Positions 22,413-29,333 of a DNA stretch of 64,000 bases are shown in pieces. Under the pieces are notes generated by a model. It was not told the DNA's origin and did not search any database. It saw only the letters and a list, made by a program, of their open reading frames with translations. The stretch lies in NCBI GenBank assembly GCA_022841745.1, contig JALHQW010000012.1, positions 1-64,000 of the forward strand, written 5' to 3'. Positions within the stretch are counted from its first letter, which is position 1, and every line of letters starts with the position of its first letter. The position numbers were made by a program, and so were the translations under genes. Origin of the DNA: Saprospiraceae bacterium. Lineage in GTDB: Bacteria; Bacteroidota; Bacteroidia; Chitinophagales; Saprospiraceae.

Positions 22413-23435
22413 ATGTCAAACCTAAAATACATCCCCGATGAAGGCCTGAAGGCAGCGGTCGAGATGGCCATCAGAATGGAACTGCCGCTCTTCCTGACGG
22501 GCGAGCCGGGCACTGGAAAGACGGAATTGGCCTATTGGGTGGCCGAGGCTTTTCAGGGCAAGGAAGACATTGGCGGCGAGGTGCTCCGCTTCAACGTGAA
22601 GACCACCTCCACCGCCAAGGACCTGCTCTACCGCTACGATGCCATCCGCCACTTCCGGGACAACCAGCGGTTGAAGGACAGCCAAGGCAGCGATGACCTC
22701 AACGTGCTGGACTATATCCACTTCGAAGCGCTGGGGCAGGCCATTGTTGCAGCACGCAACCAAAAACGCCGGGTGGTACTGGTGGACGAGATAGACAAGG
22801 CGCCAAGGGACTTCCCCAACGACCTGCTCTTCGAGTTCGAAAAGCTCGGCTTCCGCATCGAGGAGGCCACCAAGCAAGAACTCAATGAATACGCTAAATG
22901 GAAGGACATGCCCTCGCTCTCAGGGCTTGAAGTGGCGGGCAAGCCCGACATGGACGCCCAGGACTTCATCTTCTACGCCGACAAAGCCGAGCGGGAGAAG
23001 CCCCGTGCCGAGCGGTCGGTGAAAAAGCCCGTACTCATCATGACGAGCAATTCGGAGAAGAACCTGCCCGATGCCTTCCTACGGCGCTGCGCTTTTTTCC
23101 ATATCCCGTTCCCAACGGACAAGGACAAGGAGGGTGGCAAGCAAAAATTAATCGAGATTTTGAAGATAAAAGGGCTGTACGATGCCTCCAAAAACAAGGC
23201 CATCGTGGACAGTGCCGTGGACTTCTTCCTCGACATCCGTTCCTCCGGCCTGCGCCGCAACCCCGCCACAGCAGAACTGATTGCCTGGGTGGAGTACCTG
23301 CGGGAACTGGGCATCAACCCCAAGGACGAACTCTCCAAAGCCGATTTTGAGCGGTTGGAACCTTCCCTTTCATTGCTCGGCAAAAACAAGGAGGATTTGC
23401 TGCGCATCAAGGAGCGGATTAAGGTTAGGTTGTAG
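22413..23435 (+). CDS. MoxR-type AAA+ ATPase of a conflict-like system
   Basis: 340 residues. Walker A GEPGTGKT (30-37), Walker B VVLVDEIDKAP (Asp125/Glu126), sensor 1 MTSNSEKN and the arginine-finger segment DAFLRRCAFFHIPFP place it in the MoxR group. The C-terminal lid helix (about 255-335) is present. MoxR ATPases remodel vWA-domain partners; a vWA-like protein is encoded two genes on, which supports a functional set. A repeat-filled gap of about 295 bp separates it from the CHAT gene. In MoxR-vWA conflict modules described for other bacteria this ATPase is the nucleotide-driven switch. Confidence 0.85.
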   Translation: MSNLKYIPDEGLKAAVEMAIRMELPLFLTGEPGTGKTELAYWVAEAFQGKEDIGGEVLRFNVKTTSTAKDLLYRYDAIRHFRDNQRLKDSQGSDDLNVLDYIHFEALGQAIVAARNQKRRVVLVDEIDKAPRDFPNDLLFEFEKLGFRIEEATKQELNEYAKWKDMPSLSGLEVAGKPDMDAQDFIFYADKAEREKPRAERSVKKPVLIMTSNSEKNLPDAFLRRCAFFHIPFPTDKDKEGGKQKLIEILKIKGLYDASKNKAIVDSAVDFFLDIRSSGLRRNPATAELIAWVEYLRELGINPKDELSKADFERLEPSLSLLGKNKEDLLRIKERIKVRL

Positions 23436-23730
23436 TCCGGCAGTCGGCAGTCCGGCAGTCCGGCAGTCCGGCAGTCGGCAGTCCGGCAGTCCTCAGTCCT
23501 CAGTCCGCAGTCAGTCTTTCAGTTCGACAGTGGGCAGGGGGCAGTCAATTGGCAGATCTTGTCCCGATTTTTCGGGATGTTCAGTCAGTGGCTGCTTTGG
23601 GGTTAAGTTGGTCGCCAGTCCAAAGTGGGCAGTATCCAGTGTCCAGTATCCAGTATCGAGTATCGAGTATCGAGCATCCAGTATCCAGTGTCCAGTGTCC
23701 AGTATCCAGTATCCAGCATCAAATTCTTTC
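23436..23730 (+). repeat. Two short tandem arrays between ATPase and CHAT genes
   Basis: The first array (23436-23516) is built on CAGTCCGG-type units of 7-8 bp. The second (23631-23720) has thirteen 7-bp units, mainly AGTATCC, AGTGTCC and AGTATCG. One frame stays open through both, which artificially lengthens the next ORF. The codons there (Ser, Gln, Val, Pro repeats) do not look like protein. Confidence 0.85.
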
Positions 23731-25299
23731 GTGACAAGAGCCGTTTTCATAGCATCCACATTTGATACCACAAGTCCGTTGTACCAGGCATTTACGGAGG
23801 CGGATGGTGTCAATTCCGTAGTCACCGCTACGGAGGGGTGGAAGTGTTTGCCCATCCACAAGGCGAGCATTGAAACAGTCACGGAGCATTTCAGGAGCAC
23901 AAAGGATTTCAGTTTTCAGGTGTTCCACTTCGCTGGCCATGCCATTGACCAAAACCTCCAATTCAACGACCGGATGCCGACCATCGAAGAAATGGAAGCC
24001 GGTGTGAACTACTTGGTAGGCGTGGGCGGCTTGGCGAGCATCATCAAGGTGCTGCACCCCGTCCAGTTGGTCTTCCTGAACGGCTGCTCGACCGAGGCGC
24101 AGGTCAAGGCGTTCAAGGAGGTGGGGATACCTGCGGTGATTTTTACCACGGAACCACTGAACGACAAACTGGGGATGCTCTTCGCAAAACAGTTTTATGC
24201 GGCTTTTTTCAAGAACAACGCCACCTTGGGGCAGGCTTTTGACCTCGCAAAGGCATTCATCACAGCACTAAAAGGTAATTTCGAGAACGACGGCATTGAT
24301 ACACATATAGCCGAAATCATGAACAGGGGCGGCGGTGCGGTCAGCCACGGCCCCCGGCCCGTCAAGGAACTGTACCAGTTGGAGGCAAGCGACGAGTTCA
24401 AGCAAAAGCGGTGGAGCGACTGGCCGGCGCCGCCACAATCCGGGGCGGGGAATGTGAAAAAAGACTTCATCCCCACCGAGAACATACTTTACCTAAACCG
24501 TGATTTCCAGATTGGTGTGTTCAAAACCTGCCTTTCGGGCCTCGTGGACGAGCGCAAAAAGGAAAAAAAAGATTGGGTCAGCCCCCAGTTCTTTTTCATC
24601 CACGAACTAAACCACGCCTGCCCCACCGATTTTGGCGACCGCCTGAAAACCTTCGGGGCGGGGGAGTTCTGCGAGGCGTTCCCCAGCCTGAACATTGGCC
24701 CCCAAACCTTTATTTGGCACGATGTGCAGTTGCCAGAACTGAACCTAATGGCCGATGAAGTGGCCTTCAAAAGCAGGCTGTACGAGATTTATGGCCATTA
24801 TTTCCAGTGTGTCAAGGATACGGTGGCGGGCAAGTTCACTTTCCGCTCCACCACGCAGGGCGACAACGTCTTCCTCATCCATCACAGCTTGATTGAATGG
24901 AACCCGCAGTCGGTTGAGGAGGTGAAACTGCTCCTGAACTTCTACCTCGAAGAATTCGGCTTGCAGTTGAAGGATGAACTGAGCGCCTCGTTTGCCGTGA
25001 TTTTCACTTTCCAGTACTACCAGCCCGAATCCGAGTTTGCCAAGCTGTTCAAGGAACTGGCCGACAACCCGGTATATAAGCCCCGGGTCAAAAACCTGAC
25101 CGGCCTTAAAATGATTGAAATTCAGGACGTGGCGGCTTGGCAAAAAAAGGTCTTCAAAGGCCGAACCACCCCCGTGCCGCCCGACGAAGATGCGCTCTTC
25201 CCCTTCGACAAGCCAGCGGTCAGCTTGAAGGAGGCCAAAAAAGTGATTGTCCAAAAATTGGAGGAATACAACCTCGCAATCGAGCGAAAAAATGGCTGA
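23731..25299 (+). CDS. CHAT-domain protease with C-terminal iSTAND-like domain
   Basis: 522 residues from a GTG start; the open frame continues upstream only through tandem repeats, so the GTG just after them is preferred. An N-terminal CHAT (caspase-like) domain spans about 1-185, with both catalytic residues present: His70 in VFHFAGHA and Cys119 in LVFLNGCST. The middle (about 240-500) starts with ENILYLNRDFQIGVFKTCL and is helical/beta-mixed, resembling inactive STAND NTPase (iSTAND) domains that recruit partners in bacterial conflict systems; that reading is tentative. It overlaps the next gene by 8 bp (ATGGCTGA). It is the only protease of this locus with an intact active site, so it is the likely effector. 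Confidence 0.75.
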   Translation: MTRAVFIASTFDTTSPLYQAFTEADGVNSVVTATEGWKCLPIHKASIETVTEHFRSTKDFSFQVFHFAGHAIDQNLQFNDRMPTIEEMEAGVNYLVGVGGLASIIKVLHPVQLVFLNGCSTEAQVKAFKEVGIPAVIFTTEPLNDKLGMLFAKQFYAAFFKNNATLGQAFDLAKAFITALKGNFENDGIDTHIAEIMNRGGGAVSHGPRPVKELYQLEASDEFKQKRWSDWPAPPQSGAGNVKKDFIPTENILYLNRDFQIGVFKTCLSGLVDERKKEKKDWVSPQFFFIHELNHACPTDFGDRLKTFGAGEFCEAFPSLNIGPQTFIWHDVQLPELNLMADEVAFKSRLYEIYGHYFQCVKDTVAGKFTFRSTTQGDNVFLIHHSLIEWNPQSVEEVKLLLNFYLEEFGLQLKDELSASFAVIFTFQYYQPESEFAKLFKELADNPVYKPRVKNLTGLKMIEIQDVAAWQKKVFKGRTTPVPPDEDALFPFDKPAVSLKEAKKVIVQKLEEYNLAIERKNG

Positions 25300-28200
25300 A
25301 AAAACGGGCTTGCCCGACATATTCCCCTTCCATTCCCTGCTCACCTTGTTGGAGGGCAGTGGCTTCCGCTTCGGGGTGGATACCCGTGTGCGGATGGGCG
25401 AATATTGGCAGCTCGTTGCGAAGGATGAGCAGCTAAGCCGCTCCGATTTGAAGACGCACCTGAGCGCCCTGCTTTGCCGCTCGGCGGAAGAGCAGGAGCG
25501 GTTCGAGCGTGTTTTCGACGTGTATGCGCCACCTGGAATGAGGCCGATTGGGAAAGGGGAAATTGGGCTGAGCCTGCCGCAACCTGTGGCGAAGCCGATT
25601 GAAAACAAACCCGACGAAGCCACCACTGGGCAGCCCGACGAAGGCGCAAAGCCACCACCCCTGCCACCACCACCCAACAGCAAAAGCCCACAACGGATGG
25701 GCGCTGTACTACCGATGCTGACCTTCCCAGAGGAGCCGTTCCGCATCTGGAACCTGCGGGGCATGAGCGAGGCGCTGATGCTGCTCCAGGAAAAAGTGCT
25801 GACCGAGACCTCGGAATGGGACGTGCCCGGCACCATCCGTGCCATCATGCGGTCAGGTGGCTATCCGAAGCTGGCCTATCGCCGCAGGCGGCAAGCGCCT
25901 CGCTACCTCGTGCTCATCGAGCAGCAAAGCCCCCGTGACCACCTGGCGGGCTACGCCGCCGAACTCGTGAAGGAAATCAACCACCGTGACTTAGAGGTGG
26001 CGTATTATTTTTTCGATAAAAACCCGGCCCGGTGCTGGAGGGTATGGCGTGACCCATTGACGCACGTCAACCTCGAACTGCTGAAAAGCGAATGGAACGG
26101 CGCCCGGCTGCTGCTGCTCAGCCATGCCTCCTGCTTCATCAACCCCGCTACGGGCACCCCCAGCAACCTCGCCCTCGAACTGCCGGACAGCTTCGGCCAT
26201 GTGGCCCTGCTCGCTACCAATTCCCCGCTTGAATGGGGTGCTGCGGAGCGTTCGCTCCAAACCCTGATGCCTGTGCTGCCCATGGGTACCGAGGGGCTAG
26301 GCAAGCTGATGGCCGCTTGGAACGGCGAGGCCCAGCTGAGCTTCGGCGACTGGCAGATGTTGCTGCCGGAACCTGTACCGACCCAGCTTTCGGGGGCTGC
26401 TGCGCAACGGGCGCCCGCCGAGGTGTTCATGGACGTTTACCGCTACTTGGGCAAGGACGCTTTCCGCTGGCTTTGCGCCTGCGCCGTCTATCCCGAACTC
26501 TATTTCGAGCTGACAAGTATCCTGCACGACGAGGCCATACCGCCCATGGCCGACCTCTCGGAGTGGGAGCAGCACGAGCAATGGAACCAGGCCATGCGGC
26601 TGCTCAGCAGGCTCTATTGGTTCAGGCGGGGCTACCTGCCCTCCACCATGCTGGGCGACCTGAAGCGCAACCTCAAGCCCGCCGACCTCGCCTTGGTGGA
26701 AGGCGAAATCCGCCGCATCCTCGAAATCTCCAAGAACCGGGTGGGCGAAGCGACCCATGCCGCTGGCATCCGCCAACAAATGTTCGATTGGATGGCCGAT
26801 CAGGGCTTCCGGGTGCTCTGGATTGACGACAACCCGGCGAACAACCAGCACTTGATAGACGCTTGGTCGAAATCGCTGGGCATCCTTTTCCGGCAGGCGC
26901 TCAGCACCACCGAGGCGGCTTCGTTGCTGGAAACGGAGCGCTTCCACCTCGTCATCTCCGATATTGGTCGTAAGGACGAGGAACGTTCCGCCTCGGCCAC
27001 GCTGGAAATGGTGAAACGCCAGTCGCCAGTGCCGCCTGTCGTGTTTTTCACGAATACACGGGGCATGAACCTGCGGGGAACGCTCATGGAGGCAGGGGCA
27101 TACCAAGTGACCGACAACATAAGAGAATTGCAGCAAGCGCTTTCGGAAGTGTGGGACCAGAAATTTAGACCCGTGGAAGTGCAGCAGCAGCAAGAACAGG
27201 TGCAGCAGCAATACGCTGGTTCTATGCCGATGGAAGAAAACTCGTACCAACAAAATGTGGAGGAACCGCCACCGCCGAACCAGACGGCGCAGGATCAGGA
27301 GATGCTGAAGAAATTGGGGTATTATGAGGGGGTGGTTGATGGGGTTCCTGGTGAGCAGTTCCGTTCGGCGGTTGTCAAGTTCCAGCGGGAGAATAAGTTG
27401 GTGGCGGATGGGGTTATGGGGCCACAGACGAGAGAGACGTTGAAGAAGGCGGTGGAAAAAATGGGAGCGCAACCAGAAATTCCGGAAGAATGGCGGCAAC
27501 GGGCGAGGTCGGTGTGCAGGATTACGTTGCCGGATGGTAGGAGTGGGAATGGTTTTTTGGTAGCAGATAGGTACATTTATACTTCAAAAGCTGTGATTCG
27601 TAATATAGAAGAAGTTAACCTTGCTAAAGCTAATTTCTATAGTGTGGAGACAAGCGCCACTCGGGCCTATGAGCTAGACCCCTCGGAATTCCAATTAGGG
27701 AACAATGATAACGACTTCGTTAGGGTACGGTTGAAGCTAACAGCTTCAATATTCACAACGAATCTGCCAGCCCTTTCAATAAGTAGCAAAGGCCCTGGCA
27801 CTGGCGACAAGGTTTCGGTCATTTATCTCCCACCGAACGGCGAATTGACGCCTAAGTTTGCCCTTGATTGTCCCATTTTTGAATTCAGTAATGAAAGTTT
27901 TGGCTATGAAGCAGCTACCGAGTATAATGCGACTGGTGCTCCTGCTTTCAATGCACAAGGGGAGGTGCTTGGCATAACGCTACTTGAAGAAGGAAAGGTG
28001 AAGCGGGGGAGGTTGATGCATTCGGTAAATAAACCGACAGCTTCAACTTTATCACTTAATGAAATACGGAACCTTATAGCAGAGGATAATATAGAACAAG
28101 GATTGAATGAAATGAGGCGTATGTTCCCTGAAAACAAGGATATAATAATACAATTAGGCAGGTGGAATGCGCTCAAACGAGATAAGGAAAGAGAAGTAAT

Positions 28201-29029
28201 TGCCACGGAATATTATAATATGTCATCTGCTCAAATCAGGCATGCTGTTTTAAGCATTTTGGACAATCTTGAGAAAAATCAACCAACTGATTTTGGCGAC
28301 GAGCCAAAGCGTTCAAGGTTTATATTAACATCTGGCCAGAAAGCGTTGGCCGTTGAATTGGCACAAGTTCAATTCAGTCCCTTTACGAGGGCACTTGTTG
28401 AGGAATTGGACAGGAATACGGAGCCTGAGATTAGTATTGCACAATTAGCGAAAAGGGTGACGTTTCAAGTCAGCAGGTTTTCTACTGAAGATAAGCCAGA
28501 ACTGTCAACCTTTGTTGGCCATGATGGTGGTAATTTTTTATTAAAGCGAAAAGAAAGTGCAACCAAACGACCTATAGTGAAAGGTGACACGCAAAGCCTC
28601 AACTATATCATGGCATTTGGGATTAGTCAATACGAAGGTTTCCCCCCTATGCGGGCTGCAATTACTAATGTAAATGAATTGCATAATGTGCTTTCCAAGT
28701 ATTATGATTTTCAGCGTCCCCAGATTGCGACTTTTTTGGACAAGCAAGCAACCAAAATGTCGGTTCTTGATGCGTTGGGCAGAAACATTGAAATGCTAAC
28801 TGTAAAAGATAACCTTGTTATTTATTTTTCAGGATATTCCTATGGCGACAGAAATACCAATCAAGTTTATTGGGTACCATTTGATGGCAAATCAAATGAA
28901 TTTGAATCTTTTATTTCACAGGATGACATAAATTTAATTCTTCAAAAATGCAGGGCTTTGAATATTTTAATCATTGAAGATGCATTTAACCTAGTAGGGG
29001 ATAAAACGAGAACAAGCTATGCTGCATAA
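25292..29029 (+). CDS. Giant multidomain vWA-REC-PGB-trypsin-EAD-caspase-like protein
   Basis: 1245 residues. Approximate order: N-terminal helical domain (8-80); Pro-rich linker (95-135); vWA-like domain (200-345) whose metal-site DxSxS is replaced by IEQQS; helical region (375-500); receiver domain (506-620) with Asp512/Asp513, Asp557 and Thr587 but no conserved Lys; Gln/Pro-rich linker (628-665); PG_binding_1 domain (667-720); trypsin-like domain (735-900) with Ala for His (767) and Thr881 at the Ser position; an EAD11-like helical domain (920-995); a segment like the C-terminal half of a caspase (about 1005-1090, SRFILTSGQ and GGNFLL); then a caspase N-terminal half (1100-1240) with GYS for GHG and Ala for Cys. 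ATG 25292 overlaps the CHAT gene. The 3' third is markedly AT-richer. Likely a signal-receiving scaffold for the ATPase/CHAT pair. Confidence 0.75.
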   Translation: MAEKTGLPDIFPFHSLLTLLEGSGFRFGVDTRVRMGEYWQLVAKDEQLSRSDLKTHLSALLCRSAEEQERFERVFDVYAPPGMRPIGKGEIGLSLPQPVAKPIENKPDEATTGQPDEGAKPPPLPPPPNSKSPQRMGAVLPMLTFPEEPFRIWNLRGMSEALMLLQEKVLTETSEWDVPGTIRAIMRSGGYPKLAYRRRRQAPRYLVLIEQQSPRDHLAGYAAELVKEINHRDLEVAYYFFDKNPARCWRVWRDPLTHVNLELLKSEWNGARLLLLSHASCFINPATGTPSNLALELPDSFGHVALLATNSPLEWGAAERSLQTLMPVLPMGTEGLGKLMAAWNGEAQLSFGDWQMLLPEPVPTQLSGAAAQRAPAEVFMDVYRYLGKDAFRWLCACAVYPELYFELTSILHDEAIPPMADLSEWEQHEQWNQAMRLLSRLYWFRRGYLPSTMLGDLKRNLKPADLALVEGEIRRILEISKNRVGEATHAAGIRQQMFDWMADQGFRVLWIDDNPANNQHLIDAWSKSLGILFRQALSTTEAASLLETERFHLVISDIGRKDEERSASATLEMVKRQSPVPPVVFFTNTRGMNLRGTLMEAGAYQVTDNIRELQQALSEVWDQKFRPVEVQQQQEQVQQQYAGSMPMEENSYQQNVEEPPPPNQTAQDQEMLKKLGYYEGVVDGVPGEQFRSAVVKFQRENKLVADGVMGPQTRETLKKAVEKMGAQPEIPEEWRQRARSVCRITLPDGRSGNGFLVADRYIYTSKAVIRNIEEVNLAKANFYSVETSATRAYELDPSEFQLGNNDNDFVRVRLKLTASIFTTNLPALSISSKGPGTGDKVSVIYLPPNGELTPKFALDCPIFEFSNESFGYEAATEYNATGAPAFNAQGEVLGITLLEEGKVKRGRLMHSVNKPTASTLSLNEIRNLIAEDNIEQGLNEMRRMFPENKDIIIQLGRWNALKRDKEREVIATEYYNMSSAQIRHAVLSILDNLEKNQPTDFGDEPKRSRFILTSGQKALAVELAQVQFSPFTRALVEELDRNTEPEISIAQLAKRVTFQVSRFSTEDKPELSTFVGHDGGNFLLKRKESATKRPIVKGDTQSLNYIMAFGISQYEGFPPMRAAITNVNELHNVLSKYYDFQRPQIATFLDKQATKMSVLDALGRNIEMLTVKDNLVIYFSGYSYGDRNTNQVYWVPFDGKSNEFESFISQDDINLILQKCRALNILIIEDAFNLVGDKTRTSYAA

Positions 29030-29130
29030 GGGGAAGTATAACAGTCTTAACGTGATGTTTCCCAATGACCGCTTCATATACGCCAATTTACAAGATTAGT
29101 GAGACCCCTGTGAATTAGGCACTGAAACAG

Positions 29131-29198
29131 GTGCAGCGCACCGCAATCTTTGTAGGCAACACAAAACCCTCGCCCTCAAGGTGCAGCGCACCGCAATA
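29131..29198 (+). repeat. Direct repeat GGTGCAGCGCACCGCAAT, two copies
   Basis: Two exact 18-bp copies start about 50 bp apart; each contains the dyad GGTGC-AGC-GCACC. Two copies are too few for a CRISPR array and the spacing is only seen once. Confidence 0.7.
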
Positions 29199-29243: not shown

Positions 29244-29333
29244 TAGCAGCCCCCATCGAGAGGAGGGGTTATCAAACCCCGGCGTTCCGGAACGCCGGGG
29301 TTTGATAACCCCTCCTCTCGATGGGGGCTGCTA
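29244..29333. repeat. Perfect 90-bp palindrome
   Basis: The 45-bp arms match without mismatch or loop; the centre lies between 29288 and 29289 (TTCC|GGAA). Arms start TAGCAGCCCCCATCG and end CGATGGGGGCTGCTA. Confidence 0.95.

Follow-up and report, generated by a model that had tools for sequence, protein, structure and literature searches.

The locus analysed here lies at positions 22413 to 29029 (+ strand) of a 64,000-nucleotide stretch of the Saprospiraceae bacterium contig JALHQW010000012.1 (assembly GCA_022841745.1), hereafter the window. It consists of three consecutive genes on one strand, encoding a MoxR-type AAA+ ATPase, a protein that starts with a CHAT protease domain and a 1245-residue giant protein, and its coordinates are as given in a first-pass annotation made from the sequence alone. 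The nearest named record, a metagenome contig assigned to Saprospiraceae, encodes a MoxR with 71% identity and ends just behind that gene. Searches against PADLOC gave no match for the CHAT protein, weak ATPase-family matches for MoxR and one match at 0.027 for the giant.

The MoxR protein (22413–23435, + strand, 340 aa) matched AAA_5 in a Pfam scan (9.9e-9) and carries, in an alignment with four homologues, the motifs GEPGTGKT and VVLVDEID, which we take to be its Walker A and Walker B sequences. Two tandem-repeat arrays without strand assignment lie between this gene and the next (23434–23512 and 23630–23720, units of 7–8 or 15 bases, Tandem Repeats Finder), and together (23434–23720) they keep the CHAT frame open upstream. 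The frame is open already from 23281, and the extra stretch crosses both arrays; the likely start is GTG 23731, downstream of the repeats, which lines up with relatives and yields a protein of 522 residues (23731–25299, + strand). Numbered from this codon, the CHAT domain (23740–24237, + strand) contains His70 in FHFAGH and Cys119 in FLNGCS, both kept in the three aligned CHAT homologues, hence the intact dyad noted in the first-pass annotation was recovered. The Pfam match (23.8 bits) falls just below the cut-off of 24, and a PDB search with the domain returned 8tl0, a CHAT protein, at E 0.66 plus one unrelated entry.

The C-terminal half of the CHAT protein (24484–25272, + strand) is, on profile evidence, an iSTAND (inactive STAND) domain, the third component of ternary systems. 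Residues 7–515 of the protein align at 31% identity with a full-length relative in G007, a genome of the same genus, and this relative passes both the CHAT model and the iSTAND model PF19995 (36.6 and 34.1 bits in two scans, cut-off 24). PF19995 matched 17 of 19 aligned iSTAND rows, the window row included in the 19, at E ≤ 1 (best 3.9e-19). A profile built from relatives with the window left out found the window at E 3.2e-11, the best of 6000 shuffles reaching 0.42, and a profile lacking G007 and five more distant rows, with L068, L073 and L076 also taken out, gave 3.1e-3 (best of 6000 shuffles 0.15). The leave-out profile also matched a short stretch within the CHAT domain, which we took as noise and did not use. 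A PDB sequence search with the iSTAND profile returned nothing meaningful (best E 0.26).

The giant gene (25292–29029, + strand, ATG start) shares 8 bases with the end of the CHAT gene. Its vWA-family region (residues 143–483, 25718–26740, + strand) was tied to a family of relatives by a leave-out profile at E 2.3e-66, and VWA_CoxE matched 13 of 28 aligned family members at E ≤ 1 (best 4.5e-4); because these members match and the window itself does not, the vWA call for the giant holds at family level, with moderate confidence. A PDB sequence search with the vWA profile gave nothing meaningful (best E 0.92). The metal site is degenerate, with Glu210 replacing the first Asp and His in the second-Asp column. 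In the alignment, on which all these counts depend, canonical DxSxS is absent from all 28 rows, the window included; the first-Asp column holds Asp in 20, Glu in seven (among them the window) and Asn in one, and the second holds Asp in 14. Kaur et al. (2020, PMC7159879, in the parts accessible to us) report both Asp residues for most of the vWA domains they describe, a subset of FtsH and beta-propeller systems having lost them. Metal-independent binding by vWA domains may therefore be wider than that subset.

Further modules follow the vWA region. A receiver-like domain (residues 508–605, 26813–27106, + strand) scored 25.3 bits with Response_reg, below the cut-off of 30.2. By alignment four of five motif residues are retained, D512/D513, D557 and T587, and the conserved Lys is gone; we take D512/D513 to be the acidic pair, D557 the acceptor Asp and T587 the Thr/Ser position, with Lys completing the motif. 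In a PDB search with this domain repeat-protein matches ranked first, and 7qz2, at 2.1e-4, was the earliest plausible receiver entry. Hence, of the vWA and receiver calls in the first-pass annotation, neither was borne out by profiles in the window alone, and the vWA call stood at family level. The PG_binding_1 domain (residues 669–717, 27296–27442, + strand; 52.5 bits, cut-off 23) and the EAD11 adaptor domain (28055–28273, + strand; 47.2 bits, cut-off 26), which that annotation had also listed, are both clear. Between them lies a trypsin-like domain (27545–27976, + strand) with a Trypsin_2 score of 20.2 bits against a cut-off of 27.6. Its catalytic Ser is replaced by Thr881 in a PDB alignment (E 0.003) and its catalytic His, as placed by the usual sequence motif, presumably by Ala767; the domain is probably dead. 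The inactive trypsin and caspase-like parts proposed earlier thus have altered catalytic residues, with both family matches (Trypsin_2, and NF047832 for the caspase part) below cut-off. A Pfam scan of the giant found no WD40 match, so this feature of beta-propeller ternary systems is missing, and no VMAP-C family appeared in a scan of the three proteins at E ≤ 1, leaving the VMAP ternary systems equally unmatched; Pfam, we presume, contains a VMAP-C model.

With the vWA region as query, members of the family turned up in 21 of 100 genomes (the window's own, counted here, and 99 relatives), the own genome holding a second copy, and 27 stretches around vWA relatives were fetched. MoxR is present in 23, in 22 of them within ~0.8 kb or with an iSTAND gene between, and ~3 kb off in L073; two of the four stretches without MoxR (L062, L087) run into a contig end. 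An iSTAND was found in 19 of the 27, in 18 by iterated profiles and in L062 as a fragment by BLAST. By our own profiles, with eight also scored by Pfam, the iSTAND N-terminal partner in these 18 relatives is EAD11 in 11, TIR in two and CHAT in two, the remaining three being without assignment, and the window is the third CHAT case. The three genes therefore do co-occur elsewhere: G007 has MoxR, CHAT-iSTAND and giant in the order of the window, and G014 has CHAT-iSTAND, MoxR and giant. A single frame encodes both CHAT and iSTAND in G033, too, where Pfam alone recognises the iSTAND (28.5 bits), and in G099, where a CHAT-iSTAND protein (L193, G099:C51, 2440–3927) has neither MoxR nor vWA in the 14 kb read. 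Among 395 phylum-wide genomes, with up to three candidates scored per genome, the full fusion was shown by the window's own genome only, and our literature search found no bacterial study naming both CHAT and iSTAND.

Within the genus the effector end turns over while the core stays. The G007 locus (L063) shares the order MoxR, CHAT-iSTAND, vWA giant (31% and 39% identity) and has EAD11 on the giant as in the window, but its receiver is degenerate and PPR repeats and a TIR domain replace the PG-binding, trypsin and caspase parts. In G006 (L062) the vWA region is 62% identical and receiver, PG_binding_1 and EAD11 are as in the window; two EAD11 domains are followed by a separate frame with a canonical caspase (His and Cys kept), open at the contig end. 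This contig has only 3907 bases, and the MoxR side lies beyond it. Judged from these sequences, such module turnover agrees with a conflict system and counts against a fixed gate built on the receiver.

Other loci of the family carry further combinations. The second MoxR-vWA pair of the window's genome (L086, G000:C9, 5998–10159), with a vWA chain ending in WD40 repeats, fits the beta-propeller ternary class as far as its domains indicate. L071 (G099:C23, 6912–14419) has two tandem vWA-family genes beside one MoxR gene, with iSTAND not found in the stretch, and in L064 (G014:C60, 5040–9956) the vWA giant has an N-acetylmuramoyl-L-alanine amidase domain close to its end. In L075 (G029:C62, 4647–8831), an odd fusion, the vWA part is followed by a POT/PTR2 peptide-transporter domain and then by a canonical caspase. 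Viral contigs gave no match with the MoxR protein as query; this search reaches close relatives only, so phages may still carry such a system.

Taken together, the three genes are very probably a variant of the iSTAND MoxR-vWA ternary class. MoxR is adjacent, the vWA protein has variable C-terminal modules (at family level), the third component carries an iSTAND (via G007 and leave-out profiles) with a CHAT peptidase at its N-terminus, and cognate EAD11 copies occur elsewhere in the genome. It is the iSTAND identity of the CHAT protein's C-terminal half, established through G007, that makes the locus fit MoxR-vWA-iSTAND ternary systems. These systems, and an anti-invader function for them, were predicted by Kaur et al. 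(2020, PMC7159879), whose accessible text describes the same cluster of MoxR, vWA/effector and iSTAND (PF19995) genes, a peptidase, TIR/DRHyd or EAD at the iSTAND N-terminus, where the window has CHAT, and cognate EAD copies elsewhere in the genome as a trait of ternary systems; further versions were added later (PMC8195603, accessible part). The first-pass annotation was thus right about the general class, a MoxR-vWA conflict type with CHAT and inactive protease domains supported by homology and gene order, and its suggestion of a new conflict system falls away. The same applies to the architecture of receiver, PG_binding and dead proteases that it did not recognise: the modules are of known kinds, since PMC7159879 reports, in the parts accessible, peptidoglycan-associated effectors in iSTAND systems, inactive protease modules on the vWA chain and, in its section on VMAP systems, sporadic receiver domains among vWA-linked effectors, with ~70% of caspase and nearly all trypsin effectors inactive. 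Two features escaped the annotation, as judged from our profiles: half of the CHAT protein is an iSTAND domain, and the caspase halves are in swapped order. The window differs from the systems described in that paper in several ways: its peptidase is of CHAT type, a word absent from the accessible text, which speaks of caspase-like peptidases; its EAD11 is on the vWA chain instead of the iSTAND; it has neither metal-site Asp, both being reported there for most of the vWA domains described; and it contains a permuted, dead caspase-like domain.

The EAD11 domain of the giant is one of 19 copies in the window's genome, the other 18 lying elsewhere. Ten partner proteins, hand-picked by eye from 16 read, were scanned and every one has a further known domain, one kind each: TIR, CHAT, protein kinase, nucleoside phosphorylase, Roc-COR, FGE-sulfatase, TonB_C, Fib_succ_major, TPR and SH3. 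Across the 100 genomes, EAD11 occurs in 16 of 18 with an iSTAND match (among them G078, which lies below the cut-off) versus 26 of 82 without (Fisher p 9.5e-6, uncorrected for kinship); the window's own genome, whose iSTAND goes unrecognised by Pfam, is counted in the 82. EAD11 sits on 11 iSTAND proteins versus three giants (window, G006, G007), with no locus having both, in a small sample in which Pfam was run on eight of 18 iSTAND relatives and seven of 28 relative vWA proteins.

At the C-terminus of the giant, a p10-like half (residues 1008–1087, 28313–28552, + strand) comes before a p20-like half (residues 1104–1231, 28601–28984, + strand). The caspase-like domain therefore looks circularly permuted, and we consider a permuted caspase fold fairly probable on the profile matches. 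The first sign was that the C-terminal piece matched other genomes in two parts and in the opposite order at six places (G058:C388; G033:C46, C197 and C706; G050:C112; G014:C40), with a single place in the window's order (G014:C88). When iterated profiles were run over the fetched loci, 48 segments showed both halves, of which 45 were canonical and three permuted, six segments with the p20 half alone being excluded; counting each place once, 46 have both halves, 44 canonical and two permuted, in the window and G014. Both permuted cases are vWA proteins of CHAT-iSTAND systems, and G007, the one other such system whose giant could be read, lacks the caspase part. A giant in G014 (L068, G014:C88, 7366–11262) has an alpha/beta-hydrolase-like part (DUF7379/DUF676) ahead of its permuted caspase.

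Profiles built from canonical domains only (44 rows for p10, 50 for p20) scored 38.2 and 104.7 bits on the window, the best of 4000 shuffles reaching 7.3 and 6.5, and 69.0 and 125.4 bits on the G014 protein. The sole family-library match to the caspase part was NF047832 (2e-8, 34 bits, cut-off 140), over about half of the model: of its 211 positions it covers 7–127 in the window, to 133 in G014 and 3–208 in the canonical L072. The match stops shortly before the chain end in the window and G014, and the giant ends 14 residues past the p20-like match. The His column of the window holds Tyr1182 in the profile alignment, and the Cys place is probably Phe1232, by eye against L072; G014 keeps the His and has, again by eye, Pro at the Cys place. 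Profile searches of 395 phylum and 298 family genomes revealed no further contiguous permuted match among the matches listed. Scoring covered every first-look candidate of the 100 genomes, and up to 6, 6 and 8 candidates per genome in overlapping samples of 396, 395 and 298 genomes, with loci fetched for part of the matches.

A dead caspase-like domain with swapped halves appears to be new here and unusual in bacteria. A survey of 11,208 prokaryotic p20 sequences reports no p10-first form in the text accessible to us (PMC6426788); it recognised p10 in 1,132 of them only, using a Pfam-derived profile, hence divergent p10 halves like that of the giant could have escaped it. A published bacterial permuted caspase was not found in our literature search, which had most subscription journals outside its reach. 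Algal type III metacaspases likewise have p10 before p20 (Choi and Berges 2013, cited in the accessible part of PMC6426788), but these are eukaryotic metacaspases, whereas the bacterial domain of the giant has no His-Cys dyad and, with Tyr1182 and Phe1232 at the catalytic places, is not classed as a metacaspase. Engineered circularly permuted caspases (PMC7760212, accessible part, with Srinivasula et al. 1998 among its references) likewise have the small subunit before the large one with the old ends joined, but they are designed and constitutively active, unlike the natural domain described here, which lacks the catalytic dyad.

It is also possible, though we consider it unlikely, that the two pieces are remnants of two separate caspase domains and do not fold together. 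The catalytic Cys is lost from both permuted domains, and a tree of the 46 places, in which the window is a long branch, leaves the two ungrouped, with grouping not rejected (p-AU 0.37). In the PDB, the permuted profile aligned with metacaspases (best 3.2e-4), and only over its p20 part. Against two leftovers stand the occurrence of the same order in two genera, where the NF047832 matches end nearly alike (127 and 133 of 211), and the recognisable state of both halves in the window and G014.

On balance we favour, as somewhat probable, a single ternary conflict system in which the CHAT-iSTAND protein is sensor and trigger, MoxR remodels and EAD11 acts as a hub; the order of events that follows is more tentative. 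In the resting cell the vWA end of the giant would keep it bound to MoxR and the CHAT-iSTAND protein in one complex. An invader signal reaching the iSTAND part would prompt MoxR to spend ATP on remodelling this complex. That step would set the activation threshold, together with the vWA protein, and free CHAT, which could then cut the giant and/or proteins tethered to it. The EAD11 of the giant would serve as a homotypic hub gathering EAD11 proteins encoded elsewhere (TIR, CHAT, kinase, nucleoside phosphorylase, Roc-COR and others), and the dead trypsin and dead permuted caspase would be binding modules, for decoy or peptide capture, and not enzymes. Through the permutation the chain of this domain would begin and end in the p20/p10 linker, which is cleaved during the maturation of ordinary caspases, hence the caspase domain would stay permanently 'processed' in shape.

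Several observations weigh against this reading. Neither the iSTAND region nor the vWA region of the window has a match in Pfam at E ≤ 1 (for vWA, to a vWA model), and once G007 is also removed the iSTAND profile finds the window at only E 5.9e-4 and in pieces, compared with 0.42 for the best of 6000 shuffles. Eight of the 27 vWA stretches show no iSTAND, and EAD11 is not exclusive to iSTAND genomes, as it is carried by 26 of the 82 in which Pfam finds no iSTAND. An AlphaFold2 model of residues 1001–1245, made from the single sequence, failed (pLDDT 35, pTM 0.30) and leaves the packing of the halves unsupported, which also counts for the reading as two remnants. In the literature searched, as far as accessible, we found no experiment on an iSTAND ternary system, and which component senses is undecided according to the accessible part of PMC10907252.

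The roles could also be reversed, which we consider less probable: the giant, with its PG-binding, receiver and dead-protease modules, would sense, MoxR would relay and CHAT on the iSTAND protein would kill. An equivalent proposal exists for VMAP ternary systems (PMC10907252, accessible part), CHAT and TIR at the iSTAND N-terminus are effector-like, and the protease domains of the giant look dead, like binding modules. However, relatives have effector-like modules towards the C-terminus (TIR in G007, Amidase_3 in G014), EAD11 on the giant suits effector recruitment, and sensing is assigned to iSTAND in the accessible text of both PMC7159879 and PMC12839542, the latter describing iSTAND domains as rapidly evolving. 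The phosphorylation-gated scaffold proposed in the first-pass annotation, which would release CHAT, now seems improbable; in such a model a histidine kinase would phosphorylate the receiver. D512/D513/D557/T587 are present in the window with counterparts in G006, but the receiver lies below the Pfam cut-off in both, that of the window lacks the conserved Lys, and in G007 it has neither acidic pair nor acceptor Asp in the alignment, though MoxR, CHAT-iSTAND and vWA keep their order there. Housekeeping MoxR-vWA pairs of the CoxD/CoxE kind, chaperones for cofactor insertion, do exist (PMC7159879, accessible part); that the locus is such a pair and not immune is the most improbable of these alternatives, given the CHAT, TIR or EAD11 on the third component, the change of C-terminal modules between close relatives and the patchy presence of vWA relatives.

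Two further sequence features lie just downstream of the giant gene. Positions 29244–29333 form a perfect 90-base palindrome of two 45-base arms without spacer, of which a second copy was absent from the window at up to three mismatches. An 18-base repeat occurs in two exact copies 50 bases apart (29130–29147 and 29180–29197), with 0 expected in 100 shuffles.

These results place an unannotated locus in a named immune class and add a CHAT-iSTAND form of its third component. Its compact hub, with one EAD11 on the scaffold and 18 more in the genome, lets the idea of homotypic recruitment be tested. It also seems reasonably likely that ternary conflict systems hold a natural, permuted and dead caspase fold, locked as 'already processed' and used as a binding or decoy module of the scaffold, with an active CHAT on the partner protein. 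If the halves fold together, this domain would be a natural counterpart of the engineered reverse caspases, and a caspase fold would have been re-wired in bacteria for binding instead of cutting.

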